NCBI GenBank assembly: GCA_018110825.1
Contig: JAGBCL010000052.1
Span: forward strand, 124,001 to 188,000
Reading direction: 5' to 3'
Length of the DNA stretch: 64,000 nt
Origin: Oscillospiraceae bacterium
GTDB lineage: Bacteria > Bacillota > Clostridia > Oscillospirales > Ruminococcaceae
Made by a program: the position numbers and the translations under genes. The notes below the pieces were generated by a model, which saw nothing but the letters and a program-made list of their open reading frames with translations, ran no database searches and was not told where the DNA came from. Shown one piece after another: positions 3,680 through 30,183 of this stretch (position 1 is its first letter; the number at the start of each line of letters is the position of its first letter).

Positions 3680-4600
3680 TTACCAGGGCTGAACAGTGCC
3701 TACGATATCCTGGAGGCTGTTCAGGTTGTTGTCAGCAACATACTTTTCAAGTCCCTCGATAATCTCAACAGGAGCCATCGGATTGGAGAAAAGCGCTGCA
3801 CCAATCTGTACTGTCTGTGCGCCAGCCATCATCATTTCAACAACGTCCTCCCAGCGTGAAATACCGCCCATACCGCATACGGGGATATTTACTGCGTTGG
3901 CAACCTGCCAAACCATCCTTACCGCAACTGGGAAAATTGCTGGGCCTGAAAGTCCGCCAACATTGTTGTGGAGAATAGGTCTGCGGGTCTTGATGTCGAT
4001 ACGCATACCGAGAAGTGTATTGATAAGGGAAACTGCGTCAGCACCCTCAGCTTCAACAGCCTTTGCGATTTCAGCAATGTTTGTAACGTTAGGGGAAAGC
4101 TTCATCATAACAGGCTTGCTTGTTACAGCTCTTACGATTTTTGTGATTGAAGCCGCGCCCTCACAGCTTACGCCGAAAGCCGCGCCGCCAGCCTTAACGT
4201 TAGGGCAGGAAATGTTTACCTCAATCATATCAACGTCTGTGCTGTCAAGCTTTTCAGCAATTTCACGGTACTCGTCAGCTGTTGAACCTGCAATGTTAGC
4301 AATTACAACAGTGTCCTTTGTCTTAAGGTTAGGAAGCTCAACTGCGATAAAGTGGTCAACACCAGGATTCTGGAGTCCCACGCTGTTGAGCATACCGCTT
4401 GGAGTTTCAGCAATTCTTGGTGGGAGATTACCTGTGCGCTGTCTTGGAGTTGTACCCTTTACTGAGATACCGCCGAGAGTTGACAGTGGGTAGAAGTGCT
4501 CGAATTCTCTGCCGTAGCCGAATGCACCCGACGCAGGGATAAGCGGATTTTTGAAGTCAACGCCGCAGAAATTCACGGCAAGCTTGTTTGAATTACTCAT
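3680..4600 (-). CDS. pyrD: Dihydroorotate dehydrogenase B, catalytic subunit
   Basis: This 306-residue class 1B enzyme oxidises dihydroorotate to orotate, passing electrons to NAD through PyrK. Visible motifs are NPLIPASGAFGYG near the start, EVNISCPNVK, MKLSPNVTNI, and the FMN phosphate segment GMGGISRWEDVVEMMMAGAQTVQIGAAL. The start is the ATG at 4600, with GGAGGTG 8 bases upstream; a longer open frame runs back into pyrK but has no ribosome site. It overlaps the end of pyrK by 8 bases, as expected for two subunits made together. It is the last gene of the pyr operon. Confidence 0.93.
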   Translation of the reverse strand: MSNSNKLAVNFCGVDFKNPLIPASGAFGYGREFEHFYPLSTLGGISVKGTTPRQRTGNLPPRIAETPSGMLNSVGLQNPGVDHFIAVELPNLKTKDTVVIANIAGSTADEYREIAEKLDSTDVDMIEVNISCPNVKAGGAAFGVSCEGAASITKIVRAVTSKPVMMKLSPNVTNIAEIAKAVEAEGADAVSLINTLLGMRIDIKTRRPILHNNVGGLSGPAIFPVAVRMVWQVANAVNIPVCGMGGISRWEDVVEMMMAGAQTVQIGAALFSNPMAPVEIIEGLEKYVADNNLNSLQDIVGTVQPW

Positions 4601-5369
4601 CGAAAAGCACCTCCTCAGCATTGAAAACAGGGCCGTCCTTGCAGACGTGAGCGTAATATTCGTTGCCGTCACGGATTGTTCTGCAAGCACAAACGAGGCA
4701 CGCACCAACGCCGCAGCCCATTCTTTCTTCAAGGGAAACCTGACACTTTACGCCGTTTTCCTTTGCGATTTCGATAATTCTGCGGAGCATTACATTTGGC
4801 CCGCAAGCGTAGATTACGTCAGGCTTTTTGGAAGCAAGAACTTCCTTGAGGGCGTCTGTTACGAAGCCCTTTCTGCCTGCTGAACCGTCATCTGTACAGA
4901 GAATTGTTTCTGCGCCTGTTGCCGCAAAATCCTCCTGAAGAATTACAGCGGAAGCGTTTCTGTAGCCGCTGATTACGGTAGCGTTCTTGCCGAAGTTTTC
5001 AGCAACCGCAAGCATTGGAGGGTTACCGATACCGCCGCCGATGATGACAGCAGTTTCGTGGCCATCCATTTCGAAGCCGCGTCCGCCGAGAGGTGCAACG
5101 ATATCAATCATTGCGCCCTCTGCAAGCTGGGACATAACCTTTGTACCCTCACCTCTTACCTCGAAGATAATGCGGAGAGTACCCTTGTTCTTGTCAATTG
5201 AGCAGATGGAAATCGGACGGCGGAGCATAAAGCCGTCAACCTTGACGTTGACAAACTGACCTGCCACAGCCGCTTCTGCAACGTCGGGGCAGAGAATTGT
5301 CAGGTCATAGATTTCCTTTGCAAGTGTTTTCTTTGAGAGGATAAGATATTTACCCTGTGTGTATTTCAT
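4593..5369 (-). CDS. pyrK: Dihydroorotate dehydrogenase B, electron-transfer subunit
   Basis: A 258-residue FAD and [2Fe-2S] protein of the ferredoxin-reductase fold. The FAD-binding part carries LRRPISICSID, the NAD-binding part GGGIGNPPML, and the C-terminal iron-sulfur motif is CGVGACLVCACRT with a later Cys in HVCKDGP, giving the four cluster ligands. AAAGGAG stands 10 bases before the ATG. It moves electrons from PyrD to NAD+. It is the second-last gene of the pyr operon and is preceded by two genes that have no obvious role in pyrimidine synthesis. Confidence 0.93.
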   Translation of the reverse strand: MKYTQGKYLILSKKTLAKEIYDLTILCPDVAEAAVAGQFVNVKVDGFMLRRPISICSIDKNKGTLRIIFEVRGEGTKVMSQLAEGAMIDIVAPLGGRGFEMDGHETAVIIGGGIGNPPMLAVAENFGKNATVISGYRNASAVILQEDFAATGAETILCTDDGSAGRKGFVTDALKEVLASKKPDVIYACGPNVMLRRIIEIAKENGVKCQVSLEERMGCGVGACLVCACRTIRDGNEYYAHVCKDGPVFNAEEVLFDE

Positions 5370-5588: not shown

Positions 5589-6572
5589 TTAATAAAATTC
5601 GTCTTTTAACAAACTAATATTTTCTCGTTGGTTAACAGTTAATTTATTAAGTTCATTATATACAATACGAGGTTTATCAATCCAAAAATTATTATCCGAA
5701 ATACTATCATCATATTCCTGAAGCATTTCATAAGCCTTATTTTTAATAATATTAGAATTAATAAAATCCTTATATTCAGTAATGCTTTGTAACATAGCAT
5801 CTTTTTCTCCGAATGCCATATAACCCTGGGCACAAATGCTTGTTGCTTCATTAATATACATAAACGCGGTGCGTATATTTTTTACTGTTTCGGCTGTGGT
5901 CTTCTGTGAACTGAAAATTGTAGAAAGTGGAGCTGCTGTCTTTTCAGAAAGATATTTTATATCGTACTTCATTGTTTCCATCAACTGTGCTCTGCCATTA
6001 TTTGCAGTTTGAATTGCGGTAGCCATCAAATGTCGTTGTAATTCACTATCATTGACGGAAAGAGCTTGTCTGAAAATGTTTTCAGCACTACACACAAGTC
6101 CTATTCTGTCATTACGTTGTCCAGCTTCAACTTTACCGAGTGTTTCGTTGATTTCATCAAGTTTTTTGCTTATTTCAGCCAATTGCTTATTAATTACATA
6201 ATTATTAATTCCATCTGCCAATTCTGGGGTCATATCTTTGGGATGTAATCTTACTTGAGCGGCAAATTTATTATCAGGACCTGATAATATAGGTAAAAAT
6301 CCATCTCCATCATTCCTTGGAACAAATTTTAATGTACCTTCATCAAGTAATTTTTTTGCTTCTTCACCTAATGAAATATCCCAACCTTGTTCCGATTTTA
6401 AACTTTGAACAAACTGACCCAAAGCATTTGAATTGCCCAAAACATACATAAAATTCTTTTCAGCCTGCTTTAATGCAATATCAGCAATTGAACCTTGATA
6501 TTCTTCAATTTGTGTACCCATATCAAGCGTATTCAACATCAATTGAAAATCATCATCAACAGTATTACACAT
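5589..6572 (-). CDS. Unknown 327-residue protein inside the pyr operon
   Basis: I do not recognise this family. The protein is soluble, with no signal peptide or membrane segment. Residues 130-155 (NKQLAEISKKLDEINETLGKVE) look like a short coiled coil, and the remainder is mostly predicted helix. The start is the ATG at 6572 with GAGGTGA upstream; a TTG three bases earlier is less likely. It uses many AT-rich codons (AAT, TTA, ATA) compared with carB and pyrK, which suggests later arrival. It lies 15 bases before the zinc-ribbon gene, and the pair could form a unit, for example effector and membrane partner; that is a guess. Confidence 0.7.
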   Translation of the reverse strand: MCNTVDDDFQLMLNTLDMGTQIEEYQGSIADIALKQAEKNFMYVLGNSNALGQFVQSLKSEQGWDISLGEEAKKLLDEGTLKFVPRNDGDGFLPILSGPDNKFAAQVRLHPKDMTPELADGINNYVINKQLAEISKKLDEINETLGKVEAGQRNDRIGLVCSAENIFRQALSVNDSELQRHLMATAIQTANNGRAQLMETMKYDIKYLSEKTAAPLSTIFSSQKTTAETVKNIRTAFMYINEATSICAQGYMAFGEKDAMLQSITEYKDFINSNIIKNKAYEMLQEYDDSISDNNFWIDKPRIVYNELNKLTVNQRENISLLKDEFY

Positions 6573-6600
6573 CAATTGTCACCTCACATAAGCTTTACGA

Positions 6601-6625: not shown

Positions 6626-9600
6626 TCATATTTCCGTAATATCAATCATTTCCATATCGTCGATGTTCTTGCCCATCATAAGGATGTCAGCAACAGCGTT
6701 TGCTGTGTCGATTGCTGTCAGACAGCAGATGGAACGTTCAACGGTCTTACGGCGGATTTTTACGCTGTCAAATGCAGGGATACGTCCCTTTGCGGAGGTG
6801 GAAATTACATAGTCAATCTTGCCGCTGTCAAGGAGAGTCATAACGTTAGGCGCTTCCTCAGATGCACGTCTTGTAACGCTTGCGGCAACCATATTTCTGT
6901 TCAGCATTGAAGCTGTTCCGCTTGTCGCGTAAATATCGAAGCCAAGATGCTCAAATTTTTCAGCAACATAGATAATTTCCTGCTTGTCGGTGTCACGAAC
7001 TGTAATCAGTACGCCGCCGCCCTTCTTCTTTTCAAGGCTGTAGCCTGCAGCAACAAGTCCCTTGTAGAGTGCGTCCTCAAAGCTTTTTGCAATACCAAGG
7101 CACTCACCTGTAGACTTCATCTCAGGGCCGAGGGCTGTATCAACATCGTGAAGCTTTTCAAAGCTGAACACAGGAACCTTTACAGCGATAAAGTCAGCTT
7201 CTTTGTAGAGTCCACTTGTGTAGCCCTGATCCTTAAGGCTTTCGCCCAGCATAATCTTTGTTGCAACGTCAACCATCGGCACGCCTGTTACCTTGGAAAT
7301 GTAAGGAACAGTTCTGGAGGAACGTGGGTTAACCTCAATAACGTAAACCTCGTCATTGTAAACAACGTACTGAATATTTACAAGACCAATAACCTTGAGT
7401 TCCATAGCAAGTCTGCGTGTGTATTCGATAATTGTTTCACGGATTTTCTTTGTGAGAGTGAGGGCAGGATATACGGAAATTGAGTCGCCCGAGTGGATAC
7501 CAGCACGCTCGATATGCTCCATAATACCGGGGATAACGTAGTCTGTACCGTCACAGATTGCGTCAACTTCAACTTCCTTACCCATCATATATTTGTCGAT
7601 GAGAACAGGATTTTCAAGTCCACCACGCATAATGATTTCCATATACTCGATGATATCCTGATTGGAGTGAGCGATAATCATATTCTGACCGCCGAGAACA
7701 TAGGAAGGACGCATAAGAACAGGGTAGCCAAGCTGTTCAGCAGCCTTGAGTGCTTCCTCTGTGTTCATTACTGTAAAGCCCTCAGGACGTGGAATACCGC
7801 ACTTGTTGAGGAGCTCGTCAAAACGTTCTCTGTCCTCTGCTGCGTCAATGCTGTCAGCAGAAGTACCGAGGATATTTACACCCATATCGGAGAGGTGCTT
7901 TGTAAGCTTGATAGCGGTCTGACCGCCGAACTGTACAACAACGCCGTATGGCTTTTCAGTTTCGATAATAGCTTCAACATCTTCTCTTGTGAGTGGGTCG
8001 AAGTAAAGTCTGTCGCCTGTGTCGAAATCGGTGGAAACAGTTTCAGGGTTGTTGTTGCAGATAACAGCCTCGTAACCCATTTCTTTAAGTGCCCATACAC
8101 AGTGTACAGAACAGTAGTCGAACTCGATACCCTGACCGATACGGATTGGGCCTGAGCCGAAAACAATGATTTTCTTCTTGCCTGTGTCGTTGTTCTCAAT
8201 GAACTGCTTTGCTTCGTTCTCCTCGTCAAATGTGGAGTAGAAGTAAGGTGTTTCAGCCTTGAATTCACCTGCGCAGGTATCAACCATCTTGAACACGGCT
8301 CTTGTTCTCTTAGGACACTTCTGACCGCTGATGCGCTCGATTGTGCTGTCGAGGTAGCCGTACTTCTTGGCAATATCGTACTTTTCTTCTGTAAGCTCGC
8401 CGTCAGCAAGATATCTTTCAAGCTCGACAAGATTGTTCAGCTTGGAGATGAACCAACGGTCAATCTTTGTGATTTCGTGGATTGTATCAATTGAAATACC
8501 ACGCTTCAGCGCCTCAAATACAACGAATGCACGCTCGTCATCAACGTTGTAAAGACGGCTTCTGATTTCAGCGTCATCAAGACGTTCAAGCTTCTTCAGA
8601 TTCATTGTATCAAGTCCCAGCTCGATTGAACGTACAGCCTTCATCATAGCCTGTTCAAAGGAAGTACCGATGGACATAACCTCACCTGTTGCCATCATCT
8701 GTGTGCCGAGTGTACGTTTAGCATAAACAAACTTATCAAAAGCCCACTTCGGGAACTTTACTACACAGTAGTCAACAGCAGGCTCGAAGCAAGCGTAGGT
8801 GTTGCCTGTAACCTGATTTACGATTTCATCAAGGCTGTAGCCGATAGCGATTTTTGAAGCAACCTTTGCAATCGGGTAGCCTGTTGCCTTGGAAGCAAGT
8901 GCAGAAGAACGTGAAACTCGTGGATTAACCTCGATAACAGCGTACTCAAAGCTTGTTGGGTGGAGTGCAAACTGACAGTTACAGCCGCCCTCAACCTTGA
9001 GCTCGGAAACAATGTTCAGCGCTGCTGTACGGAGCATCTGATATTCTCTGTCTGTAAGGGATACAGCAGGAGCAATAACGATTGAGTCACCAGTGTGAAC
9101 GCCTACAGGGTCGAAGTTTTCCATTGAGCAGACTGTGATAACGTTGCCCTTACTGTCACGGATAACCTCAAATTCGATTTCCTTCCAGCCGCTGATACAC
9201 TTCTCAACAAGAATCTGTGTAATCGGTGAAAGACGCAGACCATTTGTAGCAATATCACGAAGCTCGTCCTCATTGTATGCGATACCGCCGCCTGTACCGC
9301 CGAGGGTAAATGCAGGACGCACGATTACAGGGTAGTCGATAACTTCAGCAAAGTCAACTGCGTCCTCAACTGTTTCAACAACCTTTGAAGGGATGCAAGG
9401 CTCACCGATTTTTTCCATTGTATCCTTGAATGCCTGTCTGTCCTCTGCCTTGTGGATAGTTTCAGGGTTTGCGCCGAGAAGCTTTACGCCCTGTTCAGCG
9501 AGGAATCCGCACTCTGCAAGCTGCATTGAAAGTGTAAGACCTGTCTGTCCGCCGAGGGTGGAAAGAACGCTGTCAGGCTTTTCGATTTTGATAATCTTCT

Positions 9601-9823
9601 TTACTACATCAAGGGTCAGCGGTTCGATGTAAACCTTGTCCGCCATAGCCTTGTCGGTCATAATTGTAGCAGGGTTGGAGTTGATAAGTACAACCTCAAG
9701 ACCCTCCTGCTTCAGTGTGCGGCAAGCCTGTGTGCCTGCATAGTCAAACTCAGCAGCCTGACCGATGATGATTGGTCCCGAACCGATAACGAGGACTTTC
9801 TTTATATCTTTTCTCAGTGGCAT
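6626..9823 (-). CDS. carB: Carbamoyl phosphate synthase, large subunit
   Basis: Full-length 1065-residue CarB, which makes carbamoyl phosphate from ammonia, bicarbonate and two ATP. Two homologous ATP-grasp halves are visible, each with a pre-ATP-grasp start (KVLVIGSGPIIIGQAAEFDYAG and IIVFGSGPIRIGQGIEFDY, shown here only as landmarks), GGTGGGIAYN in the first half, and the VNPRVSRSSALASKATG / VNPRSSRTVPYISKVTG metal-binding strands. A C-terminal MGS-like regulatory domain ends the protein. GGAGG precedes the ATG, and the gap from carA is one base. Nothing suggests loss of function, in contrast to its partner CarA. Confidence 0.95.
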   Translation of the reverse strand: MPLRKDIKKVLVIGSGPIIIGQAAEFDYAGTQACRTLKQEGLEVVLINSNPATIMTDKAMADKVYIEPLTLDVVKKIIKIEKPDSVLSTLGGQTGLTLSMQLAECGFLAEQGVKLLGANPETIHKAEDRQAFKDTMEKIGEPCIPSKVVETVEDAVDFAEVIDYPVIVRPAFTLGGTGGGIAYNEDELRDIATNGLRLSPITQILVEKCISGWKEIEFEVIRDSKGNVITVCSMENFDPVGVHTGDSIVIAPAVSLTDREYQMLRTAALNIVSELKVEGGCNCQFALHPTSFEYAVIEVNPRVSRSSALASKATGYPIAKVASKIAIGYSLDEIVNQVTGNTYACFEPAVDYCVVKFPKWAFDKFVYAKRTLGTQMMATGEVMSIGTSFEQAMMKAVRSIELGLDTMNLKKLERLDDAEIRSRLYNVDDERAFVVFEALKRGISIDTIHEITKIDRWFISKLNNLVELERYLADGELTEEKYDIAKKYGYLDSTIERISGQKCPKRTRAVFKMVDTCAGEFKAETPYFYSTFDEENEAKQFIENNDTGKKKIIVFGSGPIRIGQGIEFDYCSVHCVWALKEMGYEAVICNNNPETVSTDFDTGDRLYFDPLTREDVEAIIETEKPYGVVVQFGGQTAIKLTKHLSDMGVNILGTSADSIDAAEDRERFDELLNKCGIPRPEGFTVMNTEEALKAAEQLGYPVLMRPSYVLGGQNMIIAHSNQDIIEYMEIIMRGGLENPVLIDKYMMGKEVEVDAICDGTDYVIPGIMEHIERAGIHSGDSISVYPALTLTKKIRETIIEYTRRLAMELKVIGLVNIQYVVYNDEVYVIEVNPRSSRTVPYISKVTGVPMVDVATKIMLGESLKDQGYTSGLYKEADFIAVKVPVFSFEKLHDVDTALGPEMKSTGECLGIAKSFEDALYKGLVAAGYSLEKKKGGGVLITVRDTDKQEIIYVAEKFEHLGFDIYATSGTASMLNRNMVAASVTRRASEEAPNVMTLLDSGKIDYVISTSAKGRIPAFDSVKIRRKTVERSICCLTAIDTANAVADILMMGKNIDDMEMIDITEI

Positions 9824-9824
9824 A

Positions 9825-10925
9825 TTACTTGTCCTCCTTATTCATCATTGAAACGAAATCATCGAAGAAGGAAACGGTTTCCTGCGGTCCGCCGCTTACC
9901 TTCGGATAGAACTGAAGTGTGAAGCAAGGAATATCCTTGTATCTGATTCCCTCGCAAGTACCGTCATTAGCGTTTGTATGTGTAATCTCGCAGGAAATTC
10001 CGTCAAGATTTGCAACAACGTAACCATGATTCTGTGCTGTAACGAAGGTTCTCTCGCCGTTTGTTTCCTTAACAGGCTGGCTTGCACCACGATGACCATG
10101 TTTCATCTTTTCAACCTTTGCACCCATAGCAAGTGCGGCAAGCTGATGACCTAAGCCTGTTCCGAAAACAGGAATATTCATACCGAGAATTTCACGGATA
10201 TTTGTGATAATTTCCGTATTTTCAGCAGGATTGCCCGGACCTGCGGAAAGAACGATACCGTCAGGATTCATAGCCTTAACCTGCTCAGCTGTTGTGTCGG
10301 CAGGAAGCACGGTAACGTTACAGCCACGGCTCAGAAGCTCATTGCGGAAACTCTTTGTGTGACCGAAATCAAGCATTGCAACATTGTACTTACCGTTTTC
10401 TGCTGTGTAGGTTTTCTGTTCCTTTGCAGTAACAGCCTTAACAGCGTTTTCAATCTTGTACTCGGCAAGCTTCTTCATAAGCTCGTCCTTTTTCTCGTAC
10501 ACGTTTTCAGTTGTAATAACGCCGTTCATTGCACCGTTTTCACGGATAATTCTTGTAAGACAGCGTGTGTCGATGGAGTGGATACCAACAACACCATGCT
10601 TCTTCATAAACTCGTCAATGTTGCCCTCGCAACGGAAGTTTGAAGGAGCGTTGCACCATTCTCTCACAACGTAGCCGCTGAGAGCAGGTGCGTCGGACTC
10701 GTAGTCCTCATCGTTGACACCATAGTTGCCAACGAGAGGGAAAGTCTGAGTTAAAATCTGTCCGTAGTAGGAAGGGTCGGTAAGAGCCTCCTGATAGCCT
10801 GTCATACTTGTGGAAAAGACGATTTCGCCGTATGCTGTACCTGTTGCGCCAAAGGAGTAACCCTCGAAAATTCTGCCGTCAGCAAGCATAAGATAAGCCT
10901 TATCGCCCATATTGAATAAAGACAT
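9825..10925 (-). CDS. carA: Carbamoyl phosphate synthase small subunit with dead glutaminase site
   Basis: A 366-residue CarA with the usual N-terminal small-subunit domain (MTGYQEALTDPSYYGQI) and a class I glutamine amidotransferase domain from about residue 180. The catalytic triad is gone. The nucleophile motif normally GICLGHQ reads GTGLGHQ (Cys to Gly257), and the HPE motif normally QxHPEASPGP reads QFYPKVSGGP (His to Tyr340, Glu to Lys342). All three changes are clear at codon level (GGC, TAT, AAG). The frame is intact, sits between pyrF and carB, and has a good ribosome site, so this is not simple decay. I infer an ammonia-dependent synthase in which CarA is only structural or allosteric, analogous to vertebrate CPS1, which also lacks the Cys. 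Confidence 0.92.
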   Translation of the reverse strand: MSLFNMGDKAYLMLADGRIFEGYSFGATGTAYGEIVFSTSMTGYQEALTDPSYYGQILTQTFPLVGNYGVNDEDYESDAPALSGYVVREWCNAPSNFRCEGNIDEFMKKHGVVGIHSIDTRCLTRIIRENGAMNGVITTENVYEKKDELMKKLAEYKIENAVKAVTAKEQKTYTAENGKYNVAMLDFGHTKSFRNELLSRGCNVTVLPADTTAEQVKAMNPDGIVLSAGPGNPAENTEIITNIREILGMNIPVFGTGLGHQLAALAMGAKVEKMKHGHRGASQPVKETNGERTFVTAQNHGYVVANLDGISCEITHTNANDGTCEGIRYKDIPCFTLQFYPKVSGGPQETVSFFDDFVSMMNKEDK

Positions 10926-10957: not shown

Positions 10958-11890
10958 TTACTTTTTGAGAGCTGTTACGAAGCCTGTGATATCCTCTCTC
11001 ATTCTGATGCACTCACGTCTTGCTGCACCTGCAAAATCTGTTTCGTCGCAGTTTTCCTTCTGGTAAGCGCACATTACAGCTCTGGAGGAGTTTACGATTG
11101 CGCCGAGGCCCTTGTCATCGAATGCCTTTGCAACGCCTTCTGCACCGCCGCCCTGTGCACCGTAACCAGGTACAAGGAAGAATGTGTGTGGGAGCTTTGC
11201 TCTCATTTCAGCAAGCTGTTCAGGGTAAGTTGCACCAACAACAGCACCTACTGCGGAGTAACCGTATTCGCCGATTGTGTCAGCACCCCAGTTTTCGCAC
11301 ATATCACCCATTGTTTCGTAAACGCTCTTGCCGTCGTCAAGCTTTCTGTCCTGAAGCTCACCGCTGGACTTGTTGGAAGTCTTTACGAGAACGAAGATAC
11401 CCTTGTCCTTTTCCTTGCAGACAGCTGTAAGAGGAGCGATACCGTCTGTACCGAGGTAGCCGTTTACTGTAAGAGCGTCAGCACCGAAGCCCTCGAAAAC
11501 CTGACCGTCAACAGTTGTGCTGCCGAGGTAAGCGTTTGTGTAAGCTTCCATAGTTGCACCGATGTCGTTTCTCTTACCGTCAACCATTACGAACATACCC
11601 TTTTCCTGAGCGTACTTAACTGTCTTGTAGAGAGTCTGAACGCCCTGCCAGCCGTACATTTCGTAGTAAGCTGCCTGTGGCTTGATTGCAGGAACGATAT
11701 CATAAACTGCATCGATGATTGCCTTGTTGAACTGCCAGAGTGCTTCTGCCGCACCCTCGAGTGTTGCACCCTTTTCAGCGAAAGCCTTTTCCTTGATGAA
11801 GTTTGGAACGTAGTCCAGCTTAGGGTCAAGACCTACAACTGTTGGGTTGCCTGTTTCCACGATTTTCTTGATAAGTCTGTCAAATGACAT
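10958..11890 (-). CDS. pyrF: Orotidine 5'-phosphate decarboxylase, long type
   Basis: A 310-residue OMP decarboxylase, which makes UMP in the last step of the pathway. It is of the longer class 2 type: VVGLDPKLDYVP at the start, MVDGKRNDIGATMEAYTNAYLG carrying the catalytic Lys-Asp pair, and LVPGYGAQGG near the phosphate site. The ATG at 11890 has AGGAG 8 bases upstream; an in-frame GTG three codons earlier has none. It lies 32 bases before carA. Confidence 0.93.
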   Translation of the reverse strand: MSFDRLIKKIVETGNPTVVGLDPKLDYVPNFIKEKAFAEKGATLEGAAEALWQFNKAIIDAVYDIVPAIKPQAAYYEMYGWQGVQTLYKTVKYAQEKGMFVMVDGKRNDIGATMEAYTNAYLGSTTVDGQVFEGFGADALTVNGYLGTDGIAPLTAVCKEKDKGIFVLVKTSNKSSGELQDRKLDDGKSVYETMGDMCENWGADTIGEYGYSAVGAVVGATYPEQLAEMRAKLPHTFFLVPGYGAQGGGAEGVAKAFDDKGLGAIVNSSRAVMCAYQKENCDETDFAGAARRECIRMREDITGFVTALKK

Positions 11891-11939
11891 TACTACCACT
11901 CCTTATATAAATTTAAATTTTTAACTTTATAAAACTGCA

Positions 11940-12622: not shown

Positions 12623-13879
12623 TCAAGCTTCAAATCTGATTTCACCGTTTGTAATTGTCATAATATTCTTGCCCCTGAGCTTCTCACCCTTGAACACAGT
12701 ATTTTTTGACTTTGAGTGAAGCTCCTCAGGAACAACCGTCCACTCCCTGTCAAGGTCAACAACCGCAAGGTCAGCCTTTGCACCATTTTCAATTCGTGTA
12801 ACCTCAATACCGAGAAGCTTTCTCGGATTGATTGCCATAAGCTCAGCAATTCTATTCAGCGTAAGCTTGCCTGTATGATAAAGCTGTGTAAGAGTTACTG
12901 CAAGTGAAGTTTCAAGCCCCACAACACCGTTAGGCGCCTTGAGGAAGTCAGCCTTTTCCTCAGCGGCGTGAGGAGCGTGGTCTGTTACGATACAGTCAAC
13001 CGTACCGTCAAGCACCGCTTCAAGCACCGCAAGTCTGTCATCCTCGCTTCTGAGAGGAGGGTTCATTCTGTAGTCAGCGTCACGGCTGAGAAGCTTATCC
13101 TCAGTGTATGTGAAGTAGTGCGGACATGTTTCACAGGTAACTTTTATTCCGTTTTTCTTTGCGTCACGGATAAAGTTCATACTGCCTCTTGTAGAAACGT
13201 GGCAGATATGGATTCGTGCACCGCAGGAATCTGCAAGCGCAATTTCACGTGCAGTAATGCTGTCCTCTGAGGCTCTGTCCATACCCTTTACGCCAAGCTT
13301 TTCAGAAACGGCACCCTTGTGAATTATACCGCCGTTGATGATTGCCAAATCCTCACAGTGAGAAACCACAAGAAGTCCGTTTTCGTTTGTTGCTTCAAGT
13401 GTCTGACGCATCATTTCAGCATTTGCAACAGGACGTCCGTCATCGGAAATCAGCTTTACACCAAGCTCTGTCCAATCGTAAAGCTCGCCGCCCTGCATAC
13501 CCTTTGTGATACAGCCAACGGGGTACACATCAACGCCTGTGTCCTTTGCCTTGTCAAGAATATAATCAACTGTTTCCTTGCTGTCAATTGCGGGGCTTGT
13601 GTTAGGCATACAAGCAACACCGCTTACACCGCCTGCCAGCGCCGCCGCACAGCCTGTTTCAACGGTTTCCTTGTGAGTCTGACCGGGGTCACGGAAGTGA
13701 ACGTGCATATCAAAAAGTGCAGGCATAACCGCAAGCTTTCCGCTGCCGTCAACTACTCTGTCAGCTGTTACCGAAAGATTTTCGCCGACCTCGGCAATTT
13801 TTCCGTCGTCAACAAATATATCGCAGATTTTATCAGTCTTATCATCAACTGCTCTTACATTTTTAATAAGAATACTCAT
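12623..13879 (-). CDS. pyrC: Dihydroorotase
   Basis: A 418-residue type I dihydroorotase that closes carbamoyl aspartate to dihydroorotate. Zinc-binding motifs are visible: DMHVHFRDPGQTHKET near residue 57, the second-metal His in ICHVSTRGS, and TDHAPHAAEEK near residue 300 with the catalytic Asp. GGAGG lies 6 bases before the ATG. It is the second gene of the operon, 12 bases after pyrR. pyrB and pyrE are not in this operon and must be elsewhere if the pathway is complete. Confidence 0.95.
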   Translation of the reverse strand: MSILIKNVRAVDDKTDKICDIFVDDGKIAEVGENLSVTADRVVDGSGKLAVMPALFDMHVHFRDPGQTHKETVETGCAAALAGGVSGVACMPNTSPAIDSKETVDYILDKAKDTGVDVYPVGCITKGMQGGELYDWTELGVKLISDDGRPVANAEMMRQTLEATNENGLLVVSHCEDLAIINGGIIHKGAVSEKLGVKGMDRASEDSITAREIALADSCGARIHICHVSTRGSMNFIRDAKKNGIKVTCETCPHYFTYTEDKLLSRDADYRMNPPLRSEDDRLAVLEAVLDGTVDCIVTDHAPHAAEEKADFLKAPNGVVGLETSLAVTLTQLYHTGKLTLNRIAELMAINPRKLLGIEVTRIENGAKADLAVVDLDREWTVVPEELHSKSKNTVFKGEKLRGKNIMTITNGEIRFEA

Positions 13880-13891
13880 TTATTTCCTCCA

Positions 13892-14503
<612 letters not shown>

Positions 14504-23959: not shown

Positions 23960-25498
23960 TTATCTCTTCACGAAATATTCCTCGTACCAGACAAGGAAGG
24001 TGTAAATTGTCCAGATTTTACGCCAGTTATCGGAATTTCCGCCGATGTAGTCCTGCCAGATTGCATCAACCTCGTCAAGGTTGAAGAACTTGCCAGCTAT
24101 TTCGCTCGTAAGCTTCTTCTGTACGTCCTGATTGTAGCGTTCATCTGCAAGCCACATTCTGATTGGCACGATAAAACCAAGCTTCTTGCGGAATGCAATT
24201 TCATCGGGAATAACATTTGACGCAGCGGTACGGAAAGCAACCTTGTTCTGCTCCTCGTTGACCTTGAAGCGTGACGGCATTCTTGAAGCAATGTCGAAAA
24301 TTCTTCTGTCGGTAAGAGGCATTCTTACCTCAAGACCTGCAGCCGTACTCATTTTGTCAACGTTAAGATAGATGTCGCCCTCAAGCCATACCTGAATGTC
24401 AATGTCGGACATCTTTGACAGCGGGTCAAGTCCCTCGTTTTCCTCGTAAATATGCTTCACAAGGTTGATGGGAAGGAAATCTTCGTTGTAATGCTTGAGA
24501 ATACGCTTTTTCTCGTCCTCTTTCATAATGTTGGTGTTGCCAACGTAAAAGGTCTTTAAATTTTCGCCGTAGCGTTCAGCGTTGCGATACATATTGTAGC
24601 CGCCGAAAAATTCGTCAGCACCCTCACCCGAGTAGCAGATAGGTGTATGCTCAACTGTTGCTTTGCAGCCCAGTGCGAAAGCAATTGCAGAAGCGTCGCC
24701 CAAAGGCTGCTCCATATTGTACATTACATAGGGCACAATATCAAAGTAAGCTTCCGGAGTTACAAGACAACGATTGAACTTTCTGCCGAGAATGTCAGCG
24801 GTCTGCTTTGCAAGTCCAGACTCGTCAAAACGCTCATCGTCGTAACCGCAGGAATTTGCTGCTTCAACGTCTGTCATTGCCAGCACATAGGACGAGTCAA
24901 CTCCGCCGGAAAGGAATGACTCAGCTGTTTCGTCAGCCGTCTTTACCTCGGGAATAATTTCTTTGATTGTGGAATGAATTTCCTCCGCCCAGTCTTCAAG
25001 TGACTTGCTTTCGTCAGCCTTGAAGGTAGGCTTCCAGTAGCGGGTTATCTCCATTTTGCCGTTCTTCCACACAAGATAATGTCCCGGCATAAGCTTCTTT
25101 ACACCCTTGAAGAAAGTGTCCTCGCCTGCAACATAAGTAAGGCTCATATAAATCTGCAAAAGTTCCTCGTTAAGCTCCTTGACGAAGCCGTCCTGCTCCA
25201 TAATTGCACGGATTGTTGTGCCGCAGAGGAGCTTACCGTCAGCTGTCACATAGTAGTAGAATGTCTTTGTACCGAAGTGGTCACGCAGACAGAAAAGCTG
25301 TTGATTTTCCTCGTCCCAAAGCGCAAATGCAAACATACCGTGCATATGCTCTGCCATATCGAAGCCCCACTTTTGGTATGCCTTTTTCAGAATTTCGTTT
25401 TCACGCTCCTGACGGGAAAGTGTTTCAGAAATTTCAAGCTCAGCACACAATGCGTGCCAGTTTCTTATATGTCCTCTGTAATCTTTAATTTCAATCAT
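23960..25498 (-). CDS. Asparagine-synthetase-like protein lacking the glutaminase nucleophile
   Basis: A 512-residue protein. Residues 190-500 are an AsnB synthetase domain with the ATP pyrophosphatase loop SGGVDSS at 197-203 and a YSGEGADEFFGGYNMYR segment. The N-terminal Ntn glutaminase domain is incomplete. It begins MIEIKDYRGHIRNWHALC, which aligns with the GEIYN...L region about 70 residues into normal AsnB. The Cys at position 2 and the first beta strands are therefore absent. A promoter lies directly upstream at 25532 and no coding sequence is left there, so this is not a frameshift. It may make asparagine or another amide from free ammonia, or act in a different amidation. Confidence 0.82.
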   Translation of the reverse strand: MIEIKDYRGHIRNWHALCAELEISETLSRQERENEILKKAYQKWGFDMAEHMHGMFAFALWDEENQQLFCLRDHFGTKTFYYYVTADGKLLCGTTIRAIMEQDGFVKELNEELLQIYMSLTYVAGEDTFFKGVKKLMPGHYLVWKNGKMEITRYWKPTFKADESKSLEDWAEEIHSTIKEIIPEVKTADETAESFLSGGVDSSYVLAMTDVEAANSCGYDDERFDESGLAKQTADILGRKFNRCLVTPEAYFDIVPYVMYNMEQPLGDASAIAFALGCKATVEHTPICYSGEGADEFFGGYNMYRNAERYGENLKTFYVGNTNIMKEDEKKRILKHYNEDFLPINLVKHIYEENEGLDPLSKMSDIDIQVWLEGDIYLNVDKMSTAAGLEVRMPLTDRRIFDIASRMPSRFKVNEEQNKVAFRTAASNVIPDEIAFRKKLGFIVPIRMWLADERYNQDVQKKLTSEIAGKFFNLDEVDAIWQDYIGGNSDNWRKIWTIYTFLVWYEEYFVKR

Positions 25499-27694: not shown

Positions 27695-27736
27695 AATCCA
27701 CCGTATCAATTCCGACACGGTGGATTATTGTTTTTT
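27695..27736. terminator. Terminator between PfkB kinase and asnA
   Basis: A 10-bp stem AATCCACCGT / ACGGTGGATT with a 12-base loop. On the + side GTTTTTT follows, overlapping the asnA stop codon. Confidence 0.85.
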
Positions 27737-28745
27737 AGAGCAACTTAACTCCCTTTTCTTCACATTCCTTGATCATATCGCTTGGCCATACAGATACCTG
27801 CACCTCGCCGATATGAGCCTTTTCAAGCAGAAGCATACAAAGTCTTGACTGACCGATACCGCCGCCGATTGTAAGTGGAAGTGTATCGTTTGCGATAAGC
27901 TGGTGGTACTCGTACTTTATTCTTTCCTGCTGACCGCTGATTTCAAGCTGTTTTTTCAGACTTTCAGCGTCAACACGGATACCCATTGAGGAAATCTCGA
28001 TAGGTGTTTTCAGCACGTTGTTCCAGATGAGCAGGTCACCGTTGAGTGCCCAGTCGTCATAGTCCGGTGCACGTCCGTCGTGACGCACGCCGCTTTTCAG
28101 CTTGCCGCCAATCTGCATAATGAAAACTGTCTTGTGCTTCTCGGTAATGAGCCACTCACGCTCCTTGGGAGTCTTGTCGGGATACATATCCTCAAGCTCC
28201 TGAGAAGTAATGAAGTAAGTTACGTCGCAGATAGTTTCCTTAAGCTGAGGGTAACGGAGGTTAACCTTTCTCTTTGCGTTGGAAAGGGATTTAACAATAT
28301 TTTCAACGGTATTCTTCAGAAAATCAATGTTGCGGTTTTCTCTTGTGATAACCTTTTCCCAGTCCCACTGGTCAACGAAAATCGAGTGCATATTGTCAAC
28401 ATCGTCATCACGTCGGATAGCGTTCATATCTGTATAGATGCCCTCGCCTGCTGTGTAGCCGTAACGGTGGAGAGCCATTCTCTTCCACTTTGCAAGTGAC
28501 TGCACAACCTCTGCTTCATTGTCCATTTCCTTGATGGAGAACTCAACCTTACGCTCAACACCGCTGAGGTCGTCGTTGATACCGCTGTCCTTGCGAACAA
28601 GGAGAGGTGCAGTAACTCTGTCAAGGGTAAGCGCAAAGGAAAGCGCCTGCTGGAATACGTCCTTGATATACTTGATGGCGTGCTGTGTTTCACGGAGCGT
28701 CAGTGCAGATTTATAGCCGTCAGGGATATAAAGCGACTTTGACAT
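27735..28745 (-). CDS. asnA: Aspartate-ammonia ligase
   Basis: A 336-residue AsnA, close to the usual 330. It makes asparagine from aspartate, ATP and free ammonia, and shares the class II aminoacyl-tRNA synthetase fold. Clear segments are ALTLRETQHAIKYIK, LSGVERKVEF, DQWDWEKVI and GGGIGQSRLCMLLLEKAHIGEVQ. The ATG at 28745 has AAGGA 9 bases upstream. It lies 47 bases after asnS and shares the Asn T-box leader, so cellular charging of tRNA-Asn controls both asparagine supply and its use. Confidence 0.95.
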   Translation of the reverse strand: MSKSLYIPDGYKSALTLRETQHAIKYIKDVFQQALSFALTLDRVTAPLLVRKDSGINDDLSGVERKVEFSIKEMDNEAEVVQSLAKWKRMALHRYGYTAGEGIYTDMNAIRRDDDVDNMHSIFVDQWDWEKVITRENRNIDFLKNTVENIVKSLSNAKRKVNLRYPQLKETICDVTYFITSQELEDMYPDKTPKEREWLITEKHKTVFIMQIGGKLKSGVRHDGRAPDYDDWALNGDLLIWNNVLKTPIEISSMGIRVDAESLKKQLEISGQQERIKYEYHQLIANDTLPLTIGGGIGQSRLCMLLLEKAHIGEVQVSVWPSDMIKECEEKGVKLL

Positions 28746-28792
28746 ATCAATCATTCCTTTCTGAATTATCCGATTAAAGTATATGTGCAAAA

Positions 28793-30163
28793 TTAGCGAA
28801 CATTACCTACTGTTCTTGGGTAGAGGATTACGTCTCTGATGTTGGAAACACCTGTTACATACATAATAAGACGCTCGAAGCCGAGACCGAAGCCGCCGTG
28901 CGGTACGGAACCGAACTTACGGAGTTCGAGGTAGTCTGTATAGAGGTCGAGGTTCATATTTCTCTCGTTCATTGCTGCAACAAGCTTATCGTAATCAGCC
29001 TCACGCTCACTGCCGCCGATGATTTCGCCTACACCGGGCACGAGCAGGTCAACAGCTGCAACTGTCTTTCCGTCAGGGTTCTGCTTCATATAGAAGGACT
29101 TGATTTCCTTAGGATAGTTTGTTACGAAAACAGCCTTGTTGAACACTTCCTCGGAGATGTAGCGTTCGTGTTCGGTCTGAAGGTCGCAGCCCCATTCAAC
29201 AGGGTAAACGAATTCCTTATCAGCCTTCTTGAGAAGCTCGATTGCTTCTGTGTAATCGCAAACCGCAAAATCATTGGAGATAAGGTTCTGGAGCTTTTCG
29301 ATGAGTCCGTTTTCGAAGTGTGTATCGAAGAACTTCATTTCGTCAGGGCACTTGTCAAGAACTGTCTTAACAACTGTCTTAATCATTTCTTCGGCAATTT
29401 CGATTACGTCAGGAAGTTCAGCAAATGCGATTTCAGGCTCAACGTGCCAGAATTCTGCAACGTGCTTAGGTGTATTACTGTTTTCAGCACGGAAGCTTGG
29501 GCCGAATGTGTAAATCTTACCGAAAGCCATAGCTGCAACTTCACCTTCAAGCTGACCCGAAACGCTGAGACCAGCCTTCTTGCCAAAGAAGTCGTTGCTG
29601 TAGTATTCATCTTCATTCTTATATTCTGTGTTGTAGCCGATAGTTGTAACCTGGAACATTTCGCCTGCACCCTCACAGTCGCTGCCTGTGATGAGTGGTG
29701 TGTTTACGTAAACATAGTTCTTGCTCTGGAAGAAGCTGTGGATTGCTTCAGCCATTACGGAACGTACACGGAAAACAGCGTTGAATGTGTTTGTTCTGCC
29801 GCGGAGATGTGGCATTGTACGGAGAAATTCGAGAGTATGGCGCTTCTTCTGGAGTGGGTACTCAGGAGGACAAGTGCCAAGGACTTCGATTTCGGAAGCG
29901 TTGATTTCAACAGCAGCCTGACGTGCTTCTACAACTGTACCTGTAACCTTGAGGGAAGTACCCAGCTTGAGAGCCTGGTCAAGTGCGATATCGGAAGCCT
30001 TGTCAATAACAATCTGGAGGTGCTTCAAGGAAGTACCGTCGTTAAGCTCGATAAATGCTACATTCTTGGAATCTCTTGATGTTCTTACCCAGCCGCAGAC
30101 TGTTACTGTCTTGTTGATAAGAGCGGAATTGCTGAAAACTTCTTTGATATCAATGTGTTTCAT
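28793..30163 (-). CDS. asnS: Asparaginyl-tRNA synthetase
   Basis: A 456-residue class IIb synthetase. The N-terminal OB fold (TVCGWVRTSRDSKNVAFIELNDGT) binds the anticodon. Motif 2 is FRAENSNTPKHVAEFWHVEPE, and motif 3 is HGGFGLGFERLIMYVTG. It charges tRNA-Asn directly. The ATG at 30163 has AAAGGA 8 bases upstream and is preferred to the ATG two codons earlier, which is too close. The T-box leader upstream confirms its amino-acid specificity. Confidence 0.95.
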   Translation of the reverse strand: MKHIDIKEVFSNSALINKTVTVCGWVRTSRDSKNVAFIELNDGTSLKHLQIVIDKASDIALDQALKLGTSLKVTGTVVEARQAAVEINASEIEVLGTCPPEYPLQKKRHTLEFLRTMPHLRGRTNTFNAVFRVRSVMAEAIHSFFQSKNYVYVNTPLITGSDCEGAGEMFQVTTIGYNTEYKNEDEYYSNDFFGKKAGLSVSGQLEGEVAAMAFGKIYTFGPSFRAENSNTPKHVAEFWHVEPEIAFAELPDVIEIAEEMIKTVVKTVLDKCPDEMKFFDTHFENGLIEKLQNLISNDFAVCDYTEAIELLKKADKEFVYPVEWGCDLQTEHERYISEEVFNKAVFVTNYPKEIKSFYMKQNPDGKTVAAVDLLVPGVGEIIGGSEREADYDKLVAAMNERNMNLDLYTDYLELRKFGSVPHGGFGLGFERLIMYVTGVSNIRDVILYPRTVGNVR

Positions 30164-30183
30164 AATCATTTTCCTTTCTGATA

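Follow-up and report, generated by a model that had tools for sequence, protein, structure and literature searches.

The window, a stretch of 64,000 nucleotides, carries a pyrimidine (pyr) operon on its minus strand. The carA gene (9825-10925, minus strand) is a full-length open reading frame of 366 amino acids in which Pfam recognises the CPSase_sm_chain and GATase domains, and it is adjoined by carB (6626-9823, minus strand). The carB product was aligned with E. coli CarB (1bxr_A) over residues 1-1044 with 1029 bits, and the two ATP-grasp halves, the oligomerisation domain, and the MGS domain of a CPS large subunit are all present (Pfam CPSase_L D1-D3 and MGS). These assignments bear out the claims of the earlier note that carA is full length and lies next to a normal carB. 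The same operon contains pyrF for OMP decarboxylase (10958-11899; Pfam OMPdecase). On the same strand lie pyrC for dihydroorotase (12623-13879; Amidohydro_1/DHOase) and, upstream of pyrC, a phosphoribosyltransferase gene that is putatively named pyrR (13892-14491; Pribosyltran/UPRTase). Beyond carB, also on the minus strand, are genes for a pyrK-like electron-transfer subunit of dihydroorotate dehydrogenase (4593-5369; DHODB_Fe-S_bind) and a pyrD-like dihydroorotate dehydrogenase (3680-4732; an open reading frame with an uncertain start, named by eye). Between carB and the pyrK-like gene, a 328-residue protein (5589-6575, minus strand) has no Pfam match, and the corresponding gap in the sister genome G003 holds a different open reading frame of 178 residues (L161).

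When we aligned the window CarA with E. coli CarA (1t36) and relatives and checked the codons, Cys269, His353, and Glu355 of the E. coli protein corresponded to Gly257 (10155-10157), Tyr340 (9906-9908), and Lys342 (9900-9902), and the conserved Lys202 corresponded to Thr190 (10356-10358; all codons on the minus strand). The motifs of the open reading frame read VFGTGLGHQ, SAGPGNP, and QFYPKVSGGP. The glutamine site of E. coli CarA is lined by Lys202 together with Ser47, Gly241, Gly243, Gln273, Asn311, and Gly313, and the equivalents of these last six residues are still present in the window CarA. Both domains that mark a glutamine-hydrolysing CarA, CPSase_sm_chain and class-I GATase, score over their Pfam cut-offs, and TIGR01368 gives 424.7 bits against a cut-off of 307.35; the Cys-His-Glu triad that also marks such an enzyme is absent.

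The same four changes are found in the two sister genomes, in CarA L003 of G003 (98% amino acid identity) and L004 of G004 (96-97%), and the pyr operon DNA of both sisters is about 93% identical to that of the window. Since all four changes recur at this distance, an error in a single assembly is excluded, and with the gene intact in three assemblies we ruled out an assembly artefact. The replacement of the triad by Gly257, Tyr340, and Lys342, as read in the earlier note, is thus confirmed by the alignment, the codons, and the two sisters. CarA was obtained from 19 of the 21 genus genomes searched (none from G013 or G017), and the alignment across them gave a dead triad in three and Cys, His, and Glu in 16. 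In further relatives (L034-L047) the triad is intact, except that L047 stops before the His and Glu positions. We counted the changes found in all three dead copies at 192 positions that are constant in 26 intact relatives, some of which may be one organism in two collections. These changes concentrate in the GATase half, where 25 of 94 such positions are altered; the N-terminal half has 6 altered positions of 94, and the linker has 1 of 4. The change of the SNGPGDP loop to SAGPGNP, to which the earlier note had also pointed, turned out to be a weaker signal: its final Asn is ordinary, as SNGPGNP occurs in the intact CarAs L042 and L044, and the Asn-to-Ala change alone is unusual.

We then searched the genomes for other amidotransferases. 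The genome of the window (G000) is 96% complete, G003 is 93% complete, and G004 is 70% complete with 4% contamination. A search with PF00988 found one CarA each in the drafts of G000 and G003, in both cases the dead one, and no second copy. The main class-I glutaminase family, PF00117, is likewise represented by one domain in each of these two genomes, that of the dead CarA, and no PF00117 domain of HisH, TrpG, or PyrG was found in either draft; the congeners G010, G005, G016, G015, and G001 have 5, 7, 5, 7, and 4 such domains and the sister G004 has 6. These absences apply to PF00117 and PF13522; PurQ, PdxT, and the cobalamin synthesis types belong to Pfam families of their own. PurF-length PF13522 frames occur in G010, G005, and G015 (that of G010, the one read, is PurF-like), and none was seen in G000 or G003.

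The guaA frame of G000, G003, and G004 spans 338 codons and includes no GATase domain; its product shows about 51% identity to the synthetase portion of the full-length GuaA of G005. This low identity suggests that the short GuaA may be a foreign copy that replaced the native one. Several genera (L094 on G000 contig C75, L095, and L149-L155) encode a GMP synthetase domain on its own with no GATase, some 325 residues long and starting near RPxxMxRITT, and because it is common to these genera yet unlike the full-length GuaA of their relatives, it may have spread by transfer. The window also encodes an AsnB-like asparagine synthase (23960-25498, minus strand; TIGR01536, GATase_7) whose N-terminus is short by about 68 residues and has no class-II nucleophile Cys; in the alignment with TIGR01536 its residue 7 falls at position 75, and in that with GATase_7 at position 28, and the short start is identical in G003 (L105) and G004 (L184). 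We looked for a native N-terminus in another frame and found no remnant in the three minus-strand frames over 262 bases upstream. Nearby are asnA for the ammonia-dependent asparagine synthetase (27735-28790, minus strand; Pfam AsnA; TIGR00669 340 bits, cut-off 292.8) and, adjoining it, asnS (28793-30169; tRNA-synt_2). G000 has in addition a 630-residue AsnB with its Cys, encoded in the tail of contig C109, which may be foreign. Glutamine itself has not been abandoned: GlmS is retained with its Cys, and G000 and G003 each have two glutamine synthetase matches, which by length and score are a type-I-like enzyme (strong PF00120 match) and a long form common to G010, G005, and G015, so the clade still makes and uses glutamine. 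G000 also encodes a pair of class-II GATase-like proteins that resemble each other and are about 317 residues long (L157:4043-4999, minus strand; L158:4468-5415, plus strand), adjoined by genes that by eye are resolvase-like and zinc-ribbon-like, apparently a mobile cassette.

In the available part of PMC6245113, Cys-269 and His-353 of E. coli CarA are described as essential for glutamine hydrolysis, so that the dependence of glutamine use on the triad, which the earlier note gave as established, holds for these two residues. Given the lost triad, the single CarA found in the genome, the purifying selection on carA described below, the intact CarB, and the other amidotransferases that were lost or stripped of their glutaminase part, we consider it likely that the window CarAB makes carbamoyl phosphate from free ammonia. 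The proposal of an ammonia-only synthase stands in this form for the genome of the window, but contigs of G004 carry an intact second CarA, and this restricts how far 'only' can be applied to the whole lineage. On contigs C24 and C19 of G004 (L170 and L169) we found an apparently continuous nitrogen-metabolism cluster, with the intact-triad carA on a 12-kb contig. Its genes, named by eye from the sequence, are in order GSIII, amtB, AsnB-like, purC, purA, purB, full guaA, pyrG, purF, carA, and carB, followed by dapF, an aminotransferase gene, asnB, and a nadE-like gene, and its CarA has 41% amino acid identity to that of the window. The last three genes (dapL', asnB, and nadE, the first truncated) also occur on contig C109 of G000 (L171:9545-12954) with prophage-like genes beside them, at 99.6% identity to the G004 cluster over 3.4 kb; among the matches listed, the next genomes match these genes at 77% or less.

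These contigs could mean that the lineage has two nitrogen modes, in which the dead CarA serves under plentiful ammonia and a glutamine-dependent island (guaA, pyrG, purF, carAB, asnB, and nadE, with amtB and type-III glutamine synthetase beside it) has been assembled only in part or not at all in G000 and G003. We regard this as improbable, though it is the best of the alternatives. The cluster itself, its tail in G000, and a codon usage nearer to that of the window clade than to that of the congener G005 speak for it, but the codon usage fits contamination or transfer alike. Against it, neither a second CarA nor PyrG nor another PF00117 domain was found in the drafts of G000 or G003, no cluster genes were found in G003, the other 20 of the 21 genus genomes searched show no second CarA, and G004 is the incomplete and partly contaminated assembly of the three. 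Because 99.6% identity in the tail stands out from 93% in the pyr operon, recent transfer or a shared contaminant or chimera appears to fit better than a native island. Strains with a native island, if any, could still make carbamoyl phosphate from glutamine. We rejected a known plasmid element as the source, as a tblastn search of the island CarA against PLSDB gave 184 records that were all below 60% identity. G004 also holds pieces of trp and his operons with GATases (named by eye). Two glycogen-phosphorylase-like copies in G000 are 95% identical to each other (L171:17931-20000 and G000:C116:995-3064), possibly reflecting a strain mixture in the assembly.

A dead triad might also be expected if the organism salvaged its pyrimidines and the enzyme no longer mattered, and the missing PyrG in G000 and G003, along with the missing HisH and TrpG GATases, would agree with such a decay. 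We think this quite unlikely on account of the intact genes and of the selection on them. The dN/dS values (Nei-Gojobori) of carA were 0.030 against G003 and 0.048 against G004, and those of its GATase half alone were 0.027 and 0.047, respectively. For carB the value was 0.011 against G003, and 0.079 against G004 for a 129-codon fragment at a contig end only, while carA, pyrF, pyrC, and pyrR all stayed at or below 0.06 against both sisters. Six pairs of intact carA genes of the genus gave 0.010 to 0.040. Since these ranges are similar, the dead carA copies are constrained about as tightly as working ones, and both halves of the gene are under strong purifying selection. A CarA that uses other residues to go on hydrolysing glutamine or another amide, in favour of which the kept part of the pocket could be cited, is very improbable, because nucleophile, base, acid, and the Lys202 equivalent are all gone and we know of no class-I amidotransferase that works without its Cys.

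The earlier note had treated the dead CarA as a single oddity, which was not borne out, as six further genera and one archaeon carry a CarA with Cys and/or His replaced. When we counted PF00117 matches in 198 family genomes of at least 90% completeness, seven (G000 included) had one match, 12 had two, 15 had three, and the rest had at least four. From these we took the six other one-match genomes, all 12 two-match genomes, and eight of the 15 three-match genomes, and with G003 the sample came to 27. CarA was found in 14 of them, with an altered triad in eight (G003 being one) and an intact one in six. Both Cys and His are replaced in G079 (Gly, Asn), G056 (Gly, Arg), and G137 (Gly, Phe), Cys alone in G072 (Gly) and G145 (Ser), and His alone in G167 and G208 (both to Ile). 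The archaeal case, a Methanomethylophilaceae genome from roe deer omasum (L048:5001-6053, plus strand), has Cys changed to Ala and His to Arg; its carA adjoins a full-length carB frame, and the genome keeps PyrG. On a tree of 30 CarAs, no fewer than six changes are required for the altered state, which may be read as five bacterial changes plus one on the branch to the archaeon. This number is rough, as the bootstrap did not converge, several branches stay open, and L121 and L125 are joined by long branches. With the window clade and the archaeon included, there are eight altered lineages, and Gly replaces Cys in five of them. In the E. coli enzyme, a change of Cys269 to Gly or Ser reportedly kills glutamine use, while ammonia use persists or increases. 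In two genera with an altered CarA, the neighbouring CarB is fused in one frame to diaminopimelate epimerase, DapF (L168:501-4565, minus strand, 1355 residues; L166:1169-5257, minus strand, 1363 residues).

Loss of the triad goes together with other losses. PyrG (PF06418) is missing in nine of 10 bacterial genomes with an altered CarA against three of 11 with an intact one (Fisher p 0.0075), and in 9/9 (p 0.0014) without G004, the tenth, whose PyrG pieces lie on doubtful contigs. In the low-count sample the figures are 9/9 (G000 and G003 included) against 3/6 (p 0.044), or by genus 7/7 against 3/6 (p 0.07). The PyrG synthetase domain is absent from 20 of the 33 genomes searched (G000 and G003 included), some of them 99% complete, and the genomes without it include ones that keep carA, carB, and other pyr genes. 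The sample was picked for few GATase domains, PyrG being one, which biases the rate of PyrG loss upward, and related genomes are not independent. Contrasts within genera are of help here, with PyrG missing in G079 and present in G151 and G197, and missing in G145 and present in G073; among these five, CarA triads were read for G079 and G145.

For GuaA, the GATase is lost or changed in six of seven altered-CarA genomes that have GuaA against two of 13 intact ones (p 0.004), a comparison that leaves out G004, which has both a short and a full GuaA; for G145, the short GuaA is deduced from the length of a frame that lies at the edge of a contig. No GuaA match was found in G072 and G208 (altered CarA) or in G050 and G142 (intact). 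GuaA with an internally shortened GATase (L135 and L146, 440 and 426 residues) and full-length GuaA with Cys kept and His replaced (L143, Tyr; L141, Arg) were also seen, and we read such decay in place as a possible second route to an ammonia-dependent GuaA. The genome of L135 (G133) has PyrG and no CarA match. We also considered the lone GuaA as the missing CTP synthase, but rejected it because its distribution does not follow the loss of PyrG, which is also missing from G137 and G063, where GuaA is full length and carries both motifs. As the genes for de novo UMP synthesis are kept and PyrG is missing, one speculative picture, to which we give little weight, is that several lineages of the family dropped most class-I amidotransferases and run nucleotide amination on ammonia, using CarAB with a dead CarA and a GuaA whose GATase is absent or dead, with CTP perhaps coming from an unrecognised and possibly ammonia-dependent enzyme rather than from imported cytidine.

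Returning to a CarAB that runs on ammonia, we propose that CarA would act as the structural partner of CarB and keep the complex and its ammonia path working, in the manner of the dead glutaminase-like domain in human CPS1. In the available text of PMC4655335, E. coli variants whose tunnel was blocked or perforated and that could not use glutamine are reported to remain active with external ammonia. The same text describes human CPS1 as retaining a dead glutaminase-like domain with Cys changed to Ser294 and as using outside ammonia, possibly bypassing the old glutamine site; the comparison with vertebrate CPS1 drawn in the earlier note is thereby supported for the human enzyme. In the window enzyme, too, ammonia may enter by a route other than the glutamine site, as proposed for CPS1. 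The ammonia affinity of CarB would be the weakest step, and a kinetic change in CarB would be expected because the ammonia level required by the E. coli enzyme is said to be very high and likely outside the physiological range (PMC6245113, in its accessible part). A likely driver would be life in the ammonia-rich herbivore hindgut, where an ammonia-dependent enzyme could save glutamine. Such a hindgut would be expected to supply enough ammonia.

Like CPS1, the window CarA keeps an inactive glutaminase domain in which the nucleophile Cys is replaced, here by Gly. Unlike CPS1, which is fused, mitochondrial, and dependent on N-acetylglutamate and for which the Cys change is named, the window encodes the two subunits in distinct genes, carA and carB, of a pyrimidine operon rather than as the single polypeptide of a CPS I, and Cys, His, Glu, and Lys are all replaced. 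The two genes, the same domains, and the near full-length alignment of both subunits resemble E. coli CarAB (CPS II), from which the window CarA differs in lacking the defining triad. The window CarAB is probably a two-gene bacterial parallel to CPS1 that does not belong to CPS I itself. A carbamate-kinase-like enzyme that makes carbamoyl phosphate from ammonia is already known from Pyrococcus, as far as the available parts of PMC6245113 and PMC6022934 go; that prokaryotic route resembles the one predicted here, but its enzyme has an unrelated fold and involves neither CarA nor CarB. The short GuaA of the clade, whose best PDB match is 6jp9, resembles archaeal GMP synthetase subunit B in lacking a fused GATase. 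Many archaea have the GATase as a subunit of its own (PMC10526850, available part), whereas no separate PF00117 GATase domain was found in G000 or G003. Among open-access titles and the opening lines of abstracts, we recognised no report of a bacterial CarA without glutaminase or of gut bacteria without PyrG.

Two NCBIfam families expose annotation errors: 'glutamine-hydrolyzing carbamoyl-phosphate synthase small subunit', whose cut-off the dead CarA exceeds, and 'glutamine-hydrolyzing GMP synthase', whose cut-off is exceeded by the lone GuaA synthetase. The missing PyrG poses the concrete question of where CTP comes from. The altered CarAs also offer a natural replicate of the transition from CPS II to CPS I, with intermediates in which Cys only, His only, both, or all three residues are replaced. 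A review names glutamine as the nitrogen donor that matters for E. coli, and bacteria have been described as using glutamine for this step; repeated loss of the triad in these lineages would contradict both.
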